Assembly: GCF_011927795.1 (NCBI RefSeq) | Contig: NZ_JAATJJ010000001.1 | Location: 1,861,062 to 1,925,061, forward strand | DNA length: 64,000 nt | Direction: 5' to 3' | DNA from: Saonia flava | GTDB lineage: Bacteria; Bacteroidota; Bacteroidia; Flavobacteriales; Flavobacteriaceae | In this document: one piece after another, positions 956 to 6,976 of the stretch | Layout of the letters: each line of letters opens with the position of its first letter | Numbering within the stretch: position 1 is the stretch's first letter | Made by a program: the position numbers and the translations under genes | The notes under the pieces: model-generated | The model's database searches: none | Told to the model about the DNA's origin: nothing | Seen by the model: only the letters and a program-made list of their open reading frames with translations

Positions 956-3169
956 TTAAAAATTTATGGTTGCTCCCAACAAAAAATTGGTTCCAGCTTG
1001 CGGATAATAACCCGCTCCTTCAATTGTTGTTGTAGCATTAGGGTCTGACCATGTATCATCAAACGTATAAAAATATCCATTCGAGATATATTCTTTGTTT
1101 AATATGTTGTTGACCAATCCAGAAAGCACAATGTTCTTAATAAAGGAATTCGTTTCAATTACATACTGAATGTTAAGGTCGGTTTGGGAATAAGCATCCA
1201 ATACCGAGCCTTCAGAATCTATATTCCCCATATATTGTTTACCCACAAATTTACTAAACAAAGAAAATTGTAAGTTTGGAGAAGGCAAATAGCTTAACAT
1301 ATTCCCAGCAACAAAACTTGGTGAAAAAGAAATATTGGTATTTCCTAAATTTTGAAGCACCCCATCTCTTTGAAAAACAAAATCTTTATTCTTATTTGTA
1401 CTTAAAGCAACATTAGGTTTCAATATAAACTTGTCCCCCAAATTTATATTGGCATCAACTTCCAAACCCATTCTATAACTATCTCCCACATTTGCCCTAA
1501 GTGGTGCGCCAACATCATTTAACTCACCCGTTAAAACTAACTGGTCTTTATAGTTCATATAATAAACATTAGTGTTTATTTGTGTATCGGAAGAAACATA
1601 ACGCCAGCCCAGCTCAAAATCATTTAATTTTTCTGATTTAGGGTTGCCACTTTCATAATCATTTCTATTGGGTTCCCTATTGGCTACAGCATATGAAAAA
1701 TAGAAATTGTTGTTTTTATTGGCGTCAAAAGTTATACCCGCCTTTGGATTAAAAAAATTAAAGGTATCATCTACTAAACCTGTTTCATCTCCATTAGCAC
1801 TATACCCTACTGTTCTATATTGAAGGTCCCCAAAAAGACTCCACTGTCCATCCAATTTATAATTTGCTTTGGTGTATAGGTTAAAATCCGTTTTCTTGGA
1901 GTCATCATCATAATACCTATCCCTAATTTCACCGTTTCCGGCGTAGCGCGCCCAAATAACCTCTCCAAAATGAGCTCCCTCGTAGGTGTTCCATCCTCCA
2001 CCAAAAATAAGGTTCAGCTTTTCATTGGTATAATTTGCAGAGAAAACAGTGCCATAAAAGTCATTATCCAACCATCTACGACGAATTAAATCTGTTGTAT
2101 TAACTTCTTCCCCATTAATAGTTATTGGAGCAAAATCATAGGTGGCAAAATCATCTTCCACCCTATATTGTTCAAAATAACCTCTTCCATTTGTATAATG
2201 TACAGCAATATTAGTGCTCCAATTTTCTGAAATTTTTTCGTTCCAAAGTAACTGTGCATGGTCTTGCTTGTAATTATCTTCCTCATTTTCATACGTGTAA
2301 TAATTATACCTCCTATCTGAATTACGTAGGTTCTCCGCCTCGGCATCAGAAAGAAAATTGTCTGCTATAAATTGTTCTACTCCAGCCTCATCATTTTTTA
2401 TTCTTACTAATGGCGTTCCGTACCAGGCTTGATATGTAATTTCATGCCCCCCAAAAAGCAATGCCTTAATTAAGGTATTATCATCTTTGTAGGCTCCTTG
2501 TAAAAAATAAGATTCCAAATTTGAAGATGCCCTATCTATATATCCATCAGACTTAATTTTGGATAAACGCCCAGAAATTTCAATATGGTCATTTAATAAT
2601 CCCGTACTGAATTTAACATTGTTTTTAAGCGTATTAAAGCTTCCTATTGAAGAGGATACCTGGGCATAGGCCTCATCAGATACAGCATCAGTCAATACAT
2701 TAAGACTGGCACCAAAAGCACCTGCCCCATTCGTTGAAGTTCCCACACCACGTTGCAATTGTAAACTTTCAGTAGAAGAAGCAAAATCCGGCATATTGAC
2801 CCAAAATGTGCCCTGTGATTCCGCATCGTTATATGGAATTCCATTAATAGTTACGTTGACGCGGGTGGCATCACTACCCCTAACCCGAATTCCGGTATAA
2901 CCTATTCCAGCTCCCGCATCTGTTGTAGTTACCACTCCTGGTAAAAAATTCATAAGAATAGGAATATCCTGTCCTAAATTTCGACTTGCAAATTCTTCTT
3001 TTTTAAGGTTAGAAAAAGTAACTGGTGATTCTTTGGTCACCCGCACTCCGGAAATCAATGCCTCGTCCAGTACAATGGTTTTGCCCACAATAGAATCTGA
3101 TTGTTGGTCTTGGGCAGATATGCCCATGGTCAGGCCAAAAACGGCCAATGTTGTGAAAATAGTTTTCAT
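956..3169 (-). CDS. TonB-dependent outer-membrane receptor, TPP-riboswitch controlled (probable thiamine receptor)
   Basis: A 737-residue TonB-dependent receptor. It starts with a Sec signal peptide (MKTIFTTLAVFGLTMGISAQ), followed directly by the plug domain (IPILMNFLPGVVTT, then GIRVRGSDATRVNVTINGIP) and a 22-strand type barrel ending in a terminal Phe. It lacks the N-terminal carboxypeptidase-like domain seen in the other large receptors of this window. The 5' leader contains a TPP riboswitch, and TPP-regulated outer-membrane receptors of Bacteroidota are established candidates for thiamine import, so thiamine or a precursor is the likely substrate (inference). The start at 3169 is preferred because it opens the signal peptide and sits at the end of a leader hairpin. 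No thiamine biosynthesis genes are adjacent, but a thiamine-binding protein and PnuC-type transporter lie 3.8 kb upstream on the same strand. Confidence 0.92.
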   Translation of the reverse strand: MKTIFTTLAVFGLTMGISAQDQQSDSIVGKTIVLDEALISGVRVTKESPVTFSNLKKEEFASRNLGQDIPILMNFLPGVVTTTDAGAGIGYTGIRVRGSDATRVNVTINGIPYNDAESQGTFWVNMPDFASSTESLQLQRGVGTSTNGAGAFGASLNVLTDAVSDEAYAQVSSSIGSFNTLKNNVKFSTGLLNDHIEISGRLSKIKSDGYIDRASSNLESYFLQGAYKDDNTLIKALLFGGHEITYQAWYGTPLVRIKNDEAGVEQFIADNFLSDAEAENLRNSDRRYNYYTYENEEDNYKQDHAQLLWNEKISENWSTNIAVHYTNGRGYFEQYRVEDDFATYDFAPITINGEEVNTTDLIRRRWLDNDFYGTVFSANYTNEKLNLIFGGGWNTYEGAHFGEVIWARYAGNGEIRDRYYDDDSKKTDFNLYTKANYKLDGQWSLFGDLQYRTVGYSANGDETGLVDDTFNFFNPKAGITFDANKNNNFYFSYAVANREPNRNDYESGNPKSEKLNDFELGWRYVSSDTQINTNVYYMNYKDQLVLTGELNDVGAPLRANVGDSYRMGLEVDANINLGDKFILKPNVALSTNKNKDFVFQRDGVLQNLGNTNISFSPSFVAGNMLSYLPSPNLQFSLFSKFVGKQYMGNIDSEGSVLDAYSQTDLNIQYVIETNSFIKNIVLSGLVNNILNKEYISNGYFYTFDDTWSDPNATTTIEGAGYYPQAGTNFLLGATINF

Positions 3170-3188
3170 TCGTAATGTTGTTACGAAT
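3167..3188 (-). promoter_or_regulatory. Leader hairpin covering the start codon of the riboswitch-controlled receptor
   Basis: ATTCGTAA and TTACGAAT are perfect 8-base arms around a 5-base loop. The last two bases of the right arm are the A and T of the ATG start codon, so the folded leader would occlude the start. Just 5' of it lies CCCCTTTT (3189-3196), which is complementary to AAAGGGG at the 5' side of the TPP aptamer. A translational expression platform is an inference. Confidence 0.5.
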
Positions 3189-3261
3189 AAAAGGGGCTAT
3201 TATTCTTGGTTAAAGATTGATTTTTGCTCCACTATGAAGCATAGAAATTCCAAAAAACGGC

Positions 3262-3338
3262 TTTCGCCTCCCTTGGCAGCATTACCTGCCCAGGTTCATT
3301 GGGTATAATCTCAGCTTTTTACAGCACCCCTTTGAGAT
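3262..3338 (-). promoter_or_regulatory. TPP riboswitch (THI element)
   Basis: Read on the minus strand this stretch has the aptamer landmarks in order: CTC, GGGGTGC, GCTGAGA, TATACCC, GAACCTG, GGTAATGC and GGGAG. The GGGGT/ACCC pairing corresponds to P2, the GCTGAGA loop is the pyrimidine-binding part, and the GAACCTG...GGTAATGC arm is the diphosphate-binding part of the known family. It lies about 95 bases upstream of the TonB receptor start and would repress it when thiamine diphosphate is plentiful. A weak GGC-GAAA-GCC hairpin followed by six T residues lies directly 3' and could serve transcription attenuation. Confidence 0.95.
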
Positions 3339-3343
3339 GGGGG

Positions 3344-3374
3344 CAAAGATACTTGGAAGAGTTAAACTGTACAA
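3344..3374 (-). promoter_or_regulatory. Promoter of the riboswitch transcript
   Basis: On the minus strand TATCTTTG (3344-3351) matches the Bacteroidota -7 element TAnnTTTG, with TTG (3372-3374) 20 bases upstream as -33 element. The predicted transcription start is only a few bases before the aptamer, as expected for a riboswitch leader. Confidence 0.65.
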
Positions 3375-3394
3375 TAAAAAAAGAAAAAGAACAC

Positions 3395-3420
3395 AAAAAA
3401 AGGCTGCCGAAGCAGCCTTT
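3395..3420 (-). terminator. Intrinsic terminator of cassette B (UUCG loop)
   Basis: On the minus strand GGCTGC-TTCG-GCAGCC followed by seven T residues. The UUCG tetraloop closed by C-G is exceptionally stable. The same hairpin with a TTTG loop ends cassette A at 3747-3772. Confidence 0.85.
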
Positions 3421-3506
3421 CCAACCAAACCAACCAATCTAGGAAATATGATTTTGTTTGTAATTAACTACAAGCTCAATCTTTTCCTAACCTTGATATA
3501 TTTATA
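3421..3506 (-). ncRNA. Structured 3' RNA of cassette B with G-rich GGTTGGTTTGGTTGG run
   Basis: This segment follows the 31-codon ORF on the minus strand. In order it holds a shared AAATATATC block, an outer stem TAGGAAA/TTTCCTA, an inner hairpin TTGTAG-TTAA-TTACAA, and then GGTTGGTTTGGTTGG (3421-3435) directly before the terminator. The homologous segment at 3773-3856 has the same architecture with different stem bases, which supports a conserved RNA structure. The four GG pairs could form a two-layer G-quadruplex. It may be the 3' UTR of the peptide mRNA or a processed small RNA. Confidence 0.5.
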
Positions 3507-3543
3507 CGAACTCCATTATTTTAGTCTACAGAGAAATTATTAT

Positions 3544-3639
3544 TTAATATATGAATAACATTATCACAAAGAAGATTGTGATACTCAACAAACTAAATAT
3601 CAAAGGGTTAAAATATTTCTCAATCTTAAAATTATACAT
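3544..3639 (-). CDS. Tiny single-span membrane peptide (31 aa), cassette B
   Basis: A 31-codon ORF begins MYNFKIEKYF and then is almost wholly hydrophobic (IFSLLSITIFFVIMLFIY) to its end, as in a single membrane span with a short polar N-terminus. I do not recognise the family. It is the main ORF between the promoter-like motif at 3690-3717 and the cassette terminator. A 13-codon ORF ends two bases before its ATG but starts too close to the presumed transcription start to be a convincing gene. The position matches that of the two peptides in cassette A. Coding status is inferred from context and composition only. Confidence 0.45.
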   Translation of the reverse strand: MYNFKIEKYFNPLIFSLLSITIFFVIMLFIY

Positions 3640-3689
3640 CCTTAAAGAATAAAATTATTCACATCATTATATTGATGCTTCATTTATTA

Positions 3690-3717
3690 AGACACACCTT
3701 TTTTAAATTGGTCACTT
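3690..3717 (-). promoter_or_regulatory. Promoter-like motif of cassette B (AAGTGACC-N12-GTGTGTCT)
   Basis: Minus strand: AAGTGACC, 12 bases, GTGTGTCT, then AT-rich DNA. The identical two boxes with identical spacing stand before cassette A (4189-4216), while the spacer bases differ. GTGACC and GTCT about 16 bases apart resemble ECF sigma-factor -35 and -10 boxes and do not resemble the house-keeping TTG/TAnnTTTG promoter. A regulator operator is the alternative reading. Confidence 0.55.
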
Positions 3718-3746
3718 TTTAAAGAATGTAATCCAAAACAAATAAT

Positions 3747-3772
3747 AAAAAAAGGCTGCCAAAGCAGCCTTT
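3747..3772 (-). terminator. Intrinsic terminator of cassette A
   Basis: On the minus strand GGCTGC-TTTG-GCAGCC followed by a run of seven T residues; near-identical to the terminator at 3395-3420. Confidence 0.85.
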
Positions 3773-3856
3773 CCAACCAAACCAACCAATTCAGGAGTTT
3801 TAACGTTGTCCGCGATTGCTCGCAAACTTTGTTGTTCCTGACCTGATATATTTACA
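3773..3856 (-). ncRNA. Structured 3' RNA of cassette A with G-rich GGTTGGTTTGGTTGG run
   Basis: It follows the 57-codon ORF on the minus strand. It contains AAATATATC, an outer stem TCAGGA/TCCTGA, an inner 8-bp hairpin GTTTGCGA-GCAA-TCGCGGAC with a GNRA tetraloop, and the 15-base GGTTGGTTTGGTTGG run (3773-3787) before the terminator. Compared with cassette B, the outer stem keeps pairing through a C-G to U-G change, and the inner hairpin differs in sequence but keeps a four-base loop. The G-rich run and its ATT prefix are unchanged. Confidence 0.5.
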
Positions 3857-3858
3857 TA

Positions 3859-4032
3859 TTATAAATTCTCATTATTAGCGGTAGGCCCCGGGGAATCACT
3901 GGTTAGTGCATGCATAGCATTGTCCGAGATTTTATACTTTTCCTTTGTATCGTTGTTCAATATCTGGGATGCAACCAAGAACGTAAATAAGGTTACAATT
4001 CCAAATACCATTGATTTTATAAAATGATTCAT
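3859..4032 (-). CDS. Small membrane or exported peptide (57 aa), cassette A
   Basis: The ATG overlaps the stop of the upstream 39-codon ORF as ATGA, a classic sign of translational coupling. The product begins MNHFIKSMVFGIVTLFTFLV, a positively charged start plus one hydrophobic span, followed by a polar tail of about 35 residues (NNDTKEKYKISDN, then SDSPGPTANNENL). It could be a single-pass membrane peptide with an exposed tail, or a secreted peptide with an uncleaved signal. I do not recognise the family. It sits between the shared promoter motif and the structured 3' RNA of cassette A. Confidence 0.6.
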   Translation of the reverse strand: MNHFIKSMVFGIVTLFTFLVASQILNNDTKEKYKISDNAMHALTSDSPGPTANNENL

Positions 4033-4148
4033 TTATTCTCTGGTTGCCCTTTTTTATGGGATAGTAGCGGCGGAACTAAAATGCACATTCCAATAATAAA
4101 AGCTGAAATACTTAGTATTAAAATTGCCACTATCAAATAATCTTTCAT
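4029..4148 (-). CDS. Small single-span membrane peptide (39 aa), cassette A
   Basis: This 39-codon ORF opens cassette A, about 40 bases after the GTGTGTCT box. It reads MKDYLIVAILILSISAFIIG and continues hydrophobic to a VPPLL segment, then a short basic tail (SHKKGQPENK). This is the pattern of one membrane helix with a cytoplasmic C-terminus. It overlaps the next ORF by four bases. Length recalls accessory subunits of membrane complexes, but I see no match to a known one. Confidence 0.6.
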   Translation of the reverse strand: MKDYLIVAILILSISAFIIGMCILVPPLLSHKKGQPENK

Positions 4149-4188
4149 TTCTATTATAGCTAGATTTGTTCTAGTCTTCTATATATTT

Positions 4189-4216
4189 AGACACACTATT
4201 ATTTGTTAGGTCACTT
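4189..4216 (-). promoter_or_regulatory. Promoter-like motif of cassette A (AAGTGACC-N12-GTGTGTCT)
   Basis: Second copy of the two-box motif described at 3690-3717, with the same 12-base spacing and unrelated spacer bases. It lies directly after the terminator of the DUF4301 operon, so cassette A is set up as an independent transcription unit. Confidence 0.55.
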
Positions 4217-4220
4217 TCGG

Positions 4221-4251
4221 AAATAAAAAAATGCGCAATAAAGCGCATTTT
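4221..4251 (-). terminator. Terminator of the DUF4301 operon
   Basis: On the minus strand ATGCGC-TTTATT-GCGCAT followed by a T-rich tract, 25 bases past the DUF4301 stop codon. Confidence 0.75.
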
Positions 4252-4275
4252 GTTGATTATATGATGGTTAACGAA

Positions 4276-5814
4276 CTATTTATTTTGATGTGCAGGCTTT
4301 AAAAGGTCATTAACTGTTTTAACGGGATTAAAAGTAATCAATGGAACTTCTACAAAAATTGTATTCCAAAAGGCCATTGCTCCGTTCCATAATCCGGGAA
4401 GTTCCATAGCCTTGAGGTTTTTCCCTTCTTTGGTCTTCTCCGTTATAAAACCTTGCCTATGGTCCACAAAATTCAAAAGATTATATTTTTCTCCTTTATA
4501 ATTTTTTACCGCACAAACCAAATCTACAGGATTAAAGTGCGTTGAGCCCTTCAATATCTCCACTTGGGATTCATTATCCATATTTACTTGTGCAGATTCA
4601 ATAATCTGTAGAGATATATTACCCTGGCCATCATTTATCCAAAACGGGCCTCCTCCTGGTTCTCCTTCATTCTTGACCATACCACAAACCCGTATAGGTC
4701 TATTTATTTTATCCTTAAGGATTTTTATTTGTTCCCCTATACTAAAACTATTAAACTTACCCGAAAACCTTACATTAAGCTTAGTTTCCAAAAAGTCCTT
4801 GATTTCATTTAGTTGCTCTGCTGTAATTTCAACCATATCCAACAATGCAGCATAGTCAAATGCCATTCCCTGAACCTGTAAAAGTAGTCCCGCTAAAACT
4901 TTTTTACTATTGCCCACATTTTCTGCAAATTTTGGAACCACAACATTATCAATGTTCTTGATGAAAATTACATCGGCGTTTTGTTCATCCAAATTCTCTA
5001 TCAATGCACCATGACCACCAGGTCTAAACAAAAGAGACCCATCAGAATTTCTAAACAAATTGTTTTCCATGTCAACAGCTATAGTATCTGTTGAAGGCTT
5101 CTGAAAAGAGTACCCAACGTTAAAAGAAGTCTTGGTCTTTTGTGATACACGCTCCCCTACCTTGTTAAACTCTTCATTGAACATTTTCCCATGTTGTTCC
5201 GATATGGTAAAATGTAAATTGGCTGTGCCGTCTGCTTTGGCATAAGCCGAAGCCTCATTCAAGTGTTCCTCAAAAGGAGTGGCTGCATAATTTCCATAAT
5301 CGTGAAAAGGCAGCAATCCTTTGGGAAAAAACCCATAGTTAAATCCTTCTTCTAACATCATTTGTTTTACAAATAGGTATTTTTCTTCATCTTTGGATGT
5401 AGCCTTTCCTTTAATACTATTTTGAATTAAATCATAGAAGGCAAAATTTTGATATCCATCAAAGAAGATTTTCATGTTCTTATCACCTGTACGCTCCAAA
5501 TATGCTTCCAAGGATTCACTAGAAGGATTATAGGTATCCAAAAAATTGAACAAGGCCTTGAACATTCTTGAGGCGGCTCCAGAAGCCGGTACAAATTTCA
5601 ATAGGGATAGACCTGAAATAGATTCATCAAATTTTTCAATGAGATTCTTTTCCTCTGCATCGGAAAGTTTTAATATTCCGTCTGAAATAATAGCAGCTTT
5701 TTCTAATCTTACAAAAGGAATTCCTTTCTTAAAAGTCTCTACCTGTTCTACTACTTTTTCTTTTGATATACCCTTGCTTGCTAATTGTTTTAGGTCTTTC
5801 TCGTTAAAATTCAT
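4276..5814 (-). CDS. DUF4301 family protein, nucleotidyltransferase-like
   Basis: A 512-residue soluble protein of the Bacteroidota family DUF4301. Motifs visible: VPASGAASRMFKAL near residue 75, FRPGGHGAL near 263 and FIKNIDNVVVP near 284. Together they resemble, in order, the nucleotide-binding loop, the PGGHG-type motif and the xDN motif of UTP-dependent sugar-1-phosphate uridylyltransferases, so a GT-A nucleotidyltransferase fold is a reasonable inference; activity is not established. It is the last gene of the minus-strand operon, overlapping the kinase gene upstream by four bases, and is followed by a terminator. No signal peptide or membrane span is present. Confidence 0.85.
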   Translation of the reverse strand: MNFNEKDLKQLASKGISKEKVVEQVETFKKGIPFVRLEKAAIISDGILKLSDAEEKNLIEKFDESISGLSLLKFVPASGAASRMFKALFNFLDTYNPSSESLEAYLERTGDKNMKIFFDGYQNFAFYDLIQNSIKGKATSKDEEKYLFVKQMMLEEGFNYGFFPKGLLPFHDYGNYAATPFEEHLNEASAYAKADGTANLHFTISEQHGKMFNEEFNKVGERVSQKTKTSFNVGYSFQKPSTDTIAVDMENNLFRNSDGSLLFRPGGHGALIENLDEQNADVIFIKNIDNVVVPKFAENVGNSKKVLAGLLLQVQGMAFDYAALLDMVEITAEQLNEIKDFLETKLNVRFSGKFNSFSIGEQIKILKDKINRPIRVCGMVKNEGEPGGGPFWINDGQGNISLQIIESAQVNMDNESQVEILKGSTHFNPVDLVCAVKNYKGEKYNLLNFVDHRQGFITEKTKEGKNLKAMELPGLWNGAMAFWNTIFVEVPLITFNPVKTVNDLLKPAHQNK

Positions 5815-6377
5815 CTTCTGTTCAATAGTTTGTCAATATGTTTAACAGCCGTAGCCAATCTAATTTTTTTATCTCCCTTTAAAATAATGAAATTCCTATT
5901 ATACTTCTCCAGAGTTTCTTTAAAATATTGAAACATTCTTTCTCGTTCGGTAGGTTTGTCCCTTAAATCGTCCTCTTCCCACGGAATGTCAATATAGGTT
6001 AAAAAATAGAGGTCATATGTATTTTGCAAAGCAAACTTTTCCAACAAAGGGTCGCAATGCCCAACGTAATAGGCCTCTGAATATACTTTCGTTTCCAAAA
6101 GGTCCGTATCACAGATTAATACATCTGTTGCCTTATTGGTCAATTCGTTTTCCAACTTCATTTGTCCTTCCGCAATTGGCAATAAATCGTGTGGCTCACA
6201 AGTTTTGCGCTCATTGTTCCATTTGTCCTGTAGATATTCTCTAGCATATTCTGGCACCCACACAGTATTGTAATGCCTCGCCAATTGTTCGGACAAAGTT
6301 GTCTTACCAGTAGATTCTGGACCAAACAAAACTATTTTTACAATGTCTGAGGGCTCTTGTTTAAATTTTTCTTCCAT
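5811..6377 (-). CDS. NadR C-terminal-like P-loop kinase (ribosylnicotinamide kinase type)
   Basis: A 188-residue ATPase beginning MEEKFKQEPSD. Walker A is FGPESTGKTTLSEQLA, followed by PEYAREYLQDKW and CDTDLLET, the same order as in the ribosylnicotinamide kinase domain of NadR. I chose the start at 6377: an upstream in-frame ATG at 6497 would add 40 residues that merely read through pnuC in another frame. The gene overlaps pnuC by 40 bases, indicating translational coupling. The expected role is to phosphorylate the vitamin nucleoside brought in by the transporter and so trap it. In this context thiamine is also possible as substrate; the sequence does not decide. Confidence 0.85.
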   Translation of the reverse strand: MEEKFKQEPSDIVKIVLFGPESTGKTTLSEQLARHYNTVWVPEYAREYLQDKWNNERKTCEPHDLLPIAEGQMKLENELTNKATDVLICDTDLLETKVYSEAYYVGHCDPLLEKFALQNTYDLYFLTYIDIPWEEDDLRDKPTERERMFQYFKETLEKYNRNFIILKGDKKIRLATAVKHIDKLLNRR

Positions 6378-6976
6378 GCAAAATATCCTTGAATTGCCAA
6401 AATAGTGAAAATTAAATATTGAAGTGAAAACATTCCCCAACCTCTTGATGCATATAGTGGAACAGTTATTAAATCTGCAAATATCCAAAGTGTCCAATTC
6501 TCAATTTTTTTATTGGCCATGTACCACATTGCAGTAAAAAATACTCCTGACGTGAATATATCTAAATAATTTGATGGTTTTATTTCTGTTCCCGATATAA
6601 CATAAACGATATAGGTAACAACCATGGTGGTCAAAAACAGAAAAAAACCAATGCCCTTCTCCGTATAATTAGTTCTGGAAATATGCACTATCAATTTATT
6701 ATCTGATTTTCTAGACCAATTCCACCATCCATAAATACTCATTATTGAATAATAAAAATTCATCATCATATCCCCATATAAATCATCTATAAAAAAAATA
6801 TATACCGTGATGACAGTGGCAATAAGACCCGTAGGATAGACCATTATATCCTCAATTTTTGCATAGTAAACACTGGCAATTCCAAAAAAGAATGCCGTAG
6901 CTTCCAAAATAATCAAAGAAACAGGTCTTCCTTGGTAAGGTTCTAGAAAAAAGTCAAAAATGTGGTTCATACTCAC
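6338..6976 (-). CDS. pnuC: PnuC-family vitamin transporter (nicotinamide riboside or thiamine)
   Basis: A 212-residue inner-membrane protein with about seven predicted spans and the family hallmark YGWWNW (a WxxW motif) in the middle. PnuC proteins are facilitated-diffusion transporters of the vitamin nucleoside; Bacteroidota members named PnuT transport thiamine and are tied to TPP riboswitches. Here the gene follows a thiamine-binding-domain protein (overlap of 23 bases) and precedes a NadR-like kinase (overlap of 40 bases). The kinase favours nicotinamide riboside, whereas the thiamine-binding protein and the nearby TPP-regulated receptor favour thiamine. The second ATG at 6970 (MNHIFDFF) is an alternative start. 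Confidence 0.88.
   Translation of the reverse strand: MSMNHIFDFFLEPYQGRPVSLIILEATAFFFGIASVYYAKIEDIMVYPTGLIATVITVYIFFIDDLYGDMMMNFYYSIMSIYGWWNWSRKSDNKLIVHISRTNYTEKGIGFFLFLTTMVVTYIVYVISGTEIKPSNYLDIFTSGVFFTAMWYMANKKIENWTLWIFADLITVPLYASRGWGMFSLQYLIFTILAIQGYFAWKKNLNKSPQTL

Follow-up and report, generated by a model that had tools for sequence, protein, structure and literature searches.

Tandem cassettes of membrane peptides and structured RNA as a probable arm of an ECF sigma factor regulon in Saonia flava and other Flavobacteriaceae

Introduction

What is encoded in the intergenic region that separates a DUF4301 gene from a TonB-dependent receptor gene in Saonia flava, and which regulator does it answer to? 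Flavobacteria are major marine heterotrophs, and to our knowledge a promoter, a regulon or a non-coding arm is known for few of their ECF sigma factors. In Escherichia coli, the small RNAs RybB, MicA and MicL are sigma-E-dependent and stress-induced small membrane proteins exist, and SgrS/SgrT and similar dual-function RNAs encode a small peptide. FoxI and FoxJ of Fusobacterium nucleatum are described in passages of PMC11005410 as sigma-E-dependent small RNAs, with preliminary evidence that FoxJ targets intra-operonic terminators. For Flavobacterium psychrophilum, passages of PMC9723704 report the ECF motif SM6, which contains a CGT box and is tied to T9SS genes, together with the condition-dependent sRNAs Rfp1-89; the main text of that article does not use the terms mechanosensitive, MscS, dodecin or small peptide. 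Titles and abstract openings of openly licensed PMC articles, searched for ECF sigma factors and mechanosensitive channels in flavobacteria, for the promoter box treated here, for ECF regulons of F. johnsoniae and for small membrane proteins or sRNAs, contained no description of such a system.

Organization of the Locus

The window, that is the whole stretch of 64,000 nucleotides that was analysed, belongs to a genome of 3.8 Mb (G000), and its coordinates are used here for the two units, A and B. The region of interest (3170-4275, minus strand) lies between the DUF4301 gene (4276-5814, minus; 723 bits in Pfam) and the TonB-dependent receptor gene (956-3169, minus). A preliminary description had put this gap at 0.9 kb, which has to be corrected to 1.1 kb, and a TPP riboswitch also lies inside it; the same description had proposed two units of one plan on the minus strand at 3395-4216, and this was borne out: in each of them, a promoter-like box leads into a region of small ORFs, after which come a structured 3' segment, the GGTTGGTTTGGTTGG run and a terminator. 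Reading along the minus strand, the DUF4301 terminator (4251-4228) is followed in unit A by an ECF-type promoter box (AGTGAC-N17-GTC-TAA, 4187..4215), ORF1 (4029..4148), ORF2 (3859..4032), the structured segment, a long hairpin (3778..3854), the G-run TTGGTTGGTTTGGTTGG (3773..3789) and an intrinsic terminator (3749..3774). The second half, on the same strand, comprises the ECF-type box of unit B (3688..3716), a putative 31-aa ORF (3544..3639), the structured segment (3426..3504), the G-run (3421..3437), an intrinsic terminator (3397..3422), the TPP riboswitch (3251-3341) and the receptor. The box had been claimed for both units as AAGTGACC-N12-GTGTGTCT, and exact matches are found in A (4189-4216) and in B (3690-3717).

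The 3' parts of the units fold better than shuffled sequences (z -4.06 in A and -3.48 in B), and terminators are above expectation, with 4 terminator-like sites on both strands versus 0.6 (sd 0.8) expected; of these, the minus strand has three, for DUF4301, A and B, and the fourth is the DUF4301 hairpin as read on the plus strand. The structured segment, G-run and terminator ascribed to each unit are confirmed, as is the statement that the non-coding parts have been kept while the ORFs diverged, since units A and B align well over their 3' segments and poorly over their ORF parts. Unit B has no counterpart at the same place in the nearest relative (G001, same genus), which carries one unit there.

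The TPP riboswitch, which belongs to the downstream TonB receptor, is a neighbour lying outside the cassettes, and it was missed by the default scan because its score of 43.2 bits is under the Rfam gathering cut-off of 54.3. At gathering score, no Rfam family matched in the window and 15 related loci; weaker scores within 3170-4280, all below cut-off, were obtained for rsmX (21.7 bits) and BSR0709 (19.6 bits, cut-off 382). Upstream of the DUF4301 gene (5811-6976, minus), an AAA_28-type kinase and a PnuC-like transporter are encoded; near a TPP-controlled TonB receptor, the latter may presumably serve thiamine uptake (PnuT) and not NMN transport.

Recurrence in Related Genomes

Among 397 genomes searched, 325 had a DUF4301 match, and the neighbourhoods of the best 90 of these were examined, one of them a stretch of only 580 bases. 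Only 14 of the 90, G000 included (the others being G001, G126, G146, G189, G191, G215, G240, G268, G270, G372, G379, G407 and G422), have a box at a distance of 58-125 nt behind the end of their DUF4301 match, and three more genomes (G027, G250 and G254) have one farther from DUF4301. With G142 and G203 added to these 17 box neighbourhoods, 19 genomes have a cassette-like unit. The joint occurrence of box, G-run or terminator and small hydrophobic ORFs, which had been proposed as a check on the system, is thus seen in relatives.

Of the 14 box neighbourhoods, 13 (all except G268) continue with the TPP signature, and the cassette is not tied to it, because 16 other neighbourhoods have the TPP signature and no box. 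On our own reading, peptides resembling ORF2 (type 2) occur in 10/14 and peptides resembling ORF1 (type 1) in 11/14 syntenic cassettes. Their order varies: type 1 precedes type 2 in G000, G001 and G372, and in G240, G407 and G215 the succession is type 2, a terminator T1, type 1 and a terminator T2. The G268 locus has two tandem boxes, which looks like a duplication independent of that of A and B. Neither peptide type is present in G189, where the box, the G-run/T1, a hairpin designated H1 and T2 remain.

A separate run, TTGGTTTGGTC(A/G)GAAA(A/G)G, was observed about 1200-1260 nt downstream of DUF4301, at a near-constant distance, in several genera without a cassette box at that place (L061, L064, L066, L068, L069, L073 and L077).

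The Promoter Box

In a loose form (AGTGACC-N10..16-GTGTCT), the box occurs in the whole G000 genome only in units A and B, and a reversed control likewise gives 2 sites. Across 299 Flavobacteriaceae genomes, WGTGACY-N14-GTGTCTWA is matched exactly at 303 sites, spread over 90 of the genomes, versus 5 when written backwards, and the box [AT]GTGAC-N17-GTC is a predicted promoter family on these counts. With one mismatch allowed, 6 sites versus 0 in the control were found in G000, 5 versus 0 in G372 and 2 versus 3 in G001, the two in G001 being its cassette and its ECF sigma factor gene. The six sites of G000 comprise unit A, unit B, the ECF gene, an OmpA gene, a DUF3078-like gene (a name assigned by eye) and, at C1:8558, a unit that seems to be non-coding.

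It has to be asked whether the box is read by a sigma factor at all. A sigma-A promoter was considered in place of an ECF promoter and set aside, the TAnnTTTG element not being seen by eye in A, B or G001; the DUF3078-like site (L268) is ambiguous between the two, because the box overlaps TACATTTG there. The box might also be the operator of a transcription factor that co-occurs with the ECF sigma factor, and AAGTGAC...GTGTCTT does form a weak inverted repeat, but this reading is very improbable. The two short blocks stand at a fixed spacing, N17 in 14/14 locus genomes even with N14-N18 allowed in the search, and no promoter of the Bacteroidota type (TTG..TAnnTTTG, as given in passages of PMC9723704) was seen by eye between the box and the first ORF in A, B, G001, G372 and G215. 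The position of the box before the ECF gene and the strong co-occurrence of the two, described below, also speak against an operator.

The ECF Sigma Factor and Its Apparent Operon

In G211, the box lies upstream of an ECF sigma factor gene, with genes for a 62-aa protein and an MscS-like channel next in line. The corresponding gene in the genome of the window (C1:1339769-1340314) apparently shares an operon with those for a 60-aa protein and an MscS-like channel, the latter being about 275 aa long and matching the Pfam MS_channel models. The ECF proteins of both genomes have the Pfam domains Sigma70_r2 and r4_2, that is, regions 2 and 4 only.

A search of 58 hand-picked genomes with the G211 sigma factor as query gave an ECF match of at least 114 bits in 30/30 genomes with a box or cassette versus 1/28 box-free genomes, the exception being G019 (205 bits) and the next best box-free match having 77 bits; the weakest matches, in G047 and G307, were at 33-34% identity. 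Since these 58 genomes had been chosen by hand, the search was repeated on the remaining genomes in handle order, and the ECF gene was found in 30/30 box versus 2/50 box-free genomes and then in 19/20 versus 5/57, the latter count excluding the hand-chosen G250, G254 and G270. Over these 157 genomes combined, with the 58 hand-picked ones excluded, an ECF ortholog is present in 49/50 genomes with a box versus 7/107 without (Fisher 7e-32, a value that ignores shared ancestry). One genome, G239, has a box and no ECF gene; seven have the ECF gene without an exact box, and one of these, G189, carries the cassette box that the strict pattern missed. The ECF gene is likewise present in 18 of the 19 genomes with a cassette-like unit, G250 being the exception.

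By regular expression, 16 of 30 loci have a box of their own upstream of the ECF gene, the distance from the start of the box to the matched part of the gene being 57-113 nt; the ECF gene of G000 has a one-mismatch box, identical in G001. After the ECF gene, an ORF of 56-68 aa and then one of about 270 aa follow in 28/30 loci. The ECF-MscS operon is probably autoregulated, and the sigma factor may already have a group number in the existing ECF classification. The 60-62-aa protein between the ECF and MscS genes (L230, 1318-1497, minus; L200, 2132-2317) had no match in Pfam, searched for G211 and G000, or in NCBIfam, searched for G211, and is a possible tiny anti-sigma factor. In G142 (L191), the minus-strand box at 1500 is separated from the ECF gene by a 37-aa type-1 peptide that has a box of its own and is encoded on the same strand.

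Other Genes and Units Behind the Box

The company of the box was established from the sites inspected, which are part of those listed. Exact boxes precede genes for MscS (L187), dodecin (L182), a LysM protein (L204), an M48 protease (L205) and a GIN-domain protein (L178), and one-mismatch boxes precede MscL and MscS in G372 (L262 and L266) and an OmpA-family protein in G000 (L265), all confirmed with Pfam. Six sites that at first appeared empty (L176, L177, L180, L190, L199 and L203) precede, by their coordinates, the ECF gene. In the preliminary description, the two units were taken as a duplicated, independently regulated peptide/RNA system, perhaps induced by stress; it can be retained that they are promoter-driven and duplicated here, and that the ECF-type promoter is common to mechanosensitive-channel genes, and regulation in stress, with induction itself, is read from the company that this promoter keeps. 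In G177 (L210 and L211), two contigs carry all eight exact boxes of the genome, close to channel-like and secreted proteins.

Box units lacking long ORFs and having their own terminators are also found, four in tandem in G009 (L206, 401-1110), two in G180 (L207, minus, 510-780) and one in G125 (L224, minus, 244-400), in each case just upstream of a gene that we take to be ruvX. Together with units in G106 and G189 and unit 1 of G268, these have, in sequence, the shape of sRNA genes, running from an ECF box to a terminator, and the unit at C1:8558 of G000 apparently has it too; units A and B of the window carry ORFs. By inspection, without a chance control, AACATTAAC(C/T) occurs 15-16 nt after the box in 3 of the 4 tandem units of G009, whereas neither the two G180 units nor the single G125 unit showed it; AACAYUAACC is a possible seed shared by the G009 units and H1. 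A short box-driven unit of about 65 nt, approximately GCTATTA..TCAAT followed by a G-rich hairpin, recurs in several genera (L183, L184, L194, L208, L212 and L218) and may represent a further sRNA family of the ECF regulon.

The Predicted Peptides

All three small ORFs that had been described are present in the window. ORF1 of unit A (39 aa, type 1) has, by hydropathy, a single TM segment and a basic tail, and ORF2 (57 aa, type 2) has an N-terminal TM segment and a polar tail, the start of ORF2 overlapping the stop of ORF1 as ATGA. The 31-aa ORF of unit B is hydrophobic by the same measure and has no counterpart at the locus in G001, so that the claim of small membrane peptides holds for unit A and remains putative for unit B. 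Nothing above the cut-off was found in Pfam and NCBIfam for the three peptides.

The G001 counterparts of ORF1 and ORF2 are 39% and 48% identical, and the differences fall on the three codon positions as 17/6/23 (38 codons) and 18/10/32 (51 codons), respectively, a pattern that is as predicted for proteins under selection. A similar distribution is seen between G372 and G191 (0/0/4 for type 1 and 5/2/6 for type 2) and, less clearly, between G240 and G407 (17/12/22 and 15/15/21). Across the locus genomes, type-1 peptides measure 29-68 aa, with a TM segment and a basic tail in 11/14 rows, and type-2 peptides 50-70 aa, with an N-terminal TM segment and a longer polar tail (13 rows), both by hydropathy. 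Unit A thus appears to encode two small membrane proteins, being conserved, under coding constraint and having one TM segment each (hydropathy only). Relatives of ORF2 are present in other genera; an ORF2 profile searched against the 397 genomes gave 65 at E <= 0.1, of which position confirms only G000, G001, G372, G191 and G215, and the remaining matches that were inspected were noise-like.

Small hydrophobic peptides of 31-57 aa, in tandem copies and with a structured transcript, recall type I toxin-antitoxin systems, in which toxin peptides are silenced by an antisense RNA and which would explain the tandem duplication. Such a system is hardly to be expected here, against which stand a promoter common to stress genes, the long and polar tails of the type-2 peptides, and an opposite strand that has no box at this place; sigma-70-like sites on both strands (9 versus 5.0 +/- 2.8 expected from shuffles) are not clearly above chance. 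The G189 locus, losing the peptides and keeping the RNA parts, is the reverse of what a toxin-antitoxin system predicts.

RNA Elements of the Cassettes

A further question is whether the 3' part of the units does more than end transcription. The units might be membrane-peptide genes of the ECF regulon and nothing else, the 3' structure, G-run and terminator being an efficient terminator with its 3' UTR. Strong terminators with flanking structure are common, most syntenic cassettes do encode the peptides in the fractions given above, and the H1 copy of G000 is degenerate; this explanation is nevertheless judged unlikely, given the hairpin and G-run observations that follow and the ORF-less box units found elsewhere. 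Because G189 keeps the box, G-run and hairpin without a peptide ORF, the RNA may be no less important than the peptides.

The exact 17-base G-run occurs in the 3.8-Mb genome only in units A and B, and with up to 2 mismatches at 10 sites genome-wide versus 4 for the control. In a sample of 464 kb of G000, a stringent home-made finder returned 55 terminators, and a G-run precedes two of them, those of A and B, which counts against a mere terminator and also led to the rejection of the G-run as a generic flavobacterial 3'-end mark; G-run-like runs occur at other places in other genera. A covariance model (R1) built from A and B found 14 genomes at E <= 0.1 among 99 relatives, only G000 and G001 being convincing (E <= 3.4e-7); the other matches had E of at least 0.001, and those inspected looked like unrelated terminators. 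In genome contigs, the pattern TTGGTTGGTTTGGTTGNAAAG gave 3 loci, the G001 locus and two proteobacterial ones.

The H1 hairpin, first noticed as GATAATGCTATGCAAACACTAACC and having the loop AACACUAACC, recurs near the cassette ends, whether translated or not. In unit A (3901..3923, minus), its copy has the loop CACTAACC and a weakened stem, and lies inside the tail of ORF2; this G000 copy is poorly paired and within a coding frame. Aligned over 13 copies, from all 14 locus genomes except G215, which has a different loop, H1 keeps CACU and one later C of the loop invariant. With the stem taken from the G240 hairpin, both sides have changed in 11 of 12 pairs (shuffles, mean 5.2; 0/500 as high), and 72% of the cells are paired versus 33-42% with one side slid; the stem is predicted to covary, within the limits that the structure was drawn from one aligned sequence and that the copies are related. 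RNAalifold, run on the same 13-copy alignment (A8), gave no consensus fold. This covariation and the near-invariant loop argue against a purely peptide-coding function. As a plain pattern away from the DUF4301 locus, H1 was hardly above chance and was rejected (up to 3 mismatches, 38 sites in 35/397 genomes versus 31 for the reversed control), a box lying upstream in only 4 of the 30 loci given, among which G000 and G001 are not found.

Between the loop, as ACUAACCA, and the UGGUUGGU run that precedes the terminators, 7-8 pairs are possible in 11/13 genomes when G-U is counted, and 6 in G146 and G270, numbers obtained without a chance control; the loop substitutions in G407, G379 and G001 preserve the pairing via G-U. 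Covariation is hardly able to test it, because both partners are nearly invariant. Given this pairing potential, the RNA may target terminators, both its own T1 and T2 and terminators in other mRNAs, and not start codons.

Proposed Mechanism and Relation to Known Systems

Units A and B are probably the peptide/small-RNA arm of an envelope/osmotic-stress regulon under one ECF sigma factor. The promoter family, the association of sigma factor and box, the ECF-gene boxes, the conservation of the unit A peptides, the covariation of the hairpin and the terminators on which this reading draws are all sequence-based. Envelope or osmotic stress would free the ECF sigma factor, the 60-aa protein possibly acting as its anti-sigma factor; the sigma factor would then read GTGAC-N17-GTC promoters, amplify itself and the MscS operon, and turn on channels, envelope proteins and the cassettes. 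Each unit would give one short transcript ending at the G-run/terminator. From that of unit A, two single-TM peptides would be made and would enter the inner membrane, and its 3' part, with the hairpins, G-run and terminator, would persist as, or be processed into, a regulatory RNA. Unit B would be a lineage-specific duplicate, the coding part of which has decayed or been replaced. A bolder version, in which a Bacteroidota stress sigma factor has an expanding arm of tandem, fast-evolving cassettes whose transcript combines membrane peptides with a terminator-acting small RNA, is doubtful and is offered tentatively.

The best reading is that this arm would work like the sigma-E sRNA arms of other phyla, built of other parts. 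Similarly to RybB, MicA and MicL and to FoxI and FoxJ, short RNAs are predicted to arise from ECF promoters, several per regulon, as the non-coding arm of an envelope-stress response. Unlike those, they belong to another phylum and another sigma factor, linked to an MscS-like channel and with no known anti-sigma factor recognised adjacent, and the cassettes often encode membrane peptides too and occur as tandem duplicates. The combination of a small ORF with a structured, putatively regulatory part on one predicted transcript resembles SgrS/SgrT, from which the cassettes differ in having two peptides, an ECF promoter and lineages that have lost the peptides. The single-TM peptides, here under presumed stress control, are also comparable to the stress-induced small membrane proteins of E. 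coli, no sequence relation being claimed. With F. psychrophilum, as described in passages of PMC9723704, the system shares flavobacterial ECF promoters and sRNAs, whereas SM6 differs from the cassette box in its CGT box and its T9SS link.

Conclusions

Taken together, these data, as far as genome sequence allows, support a real and conserved feature, an ECF-driven small-RNA/peptide stress arm with an unusually clear sigma factor assignment. The analysis yields a promoter motif together with the sigma factor that likely reads it, a mechanosensitive-channel operon that is probably autoregulated, a number of probable targets and a family of hidden genes for peptides and RNA, at a locus where short peptides and RNA elements can be followed as they come and go across genera.
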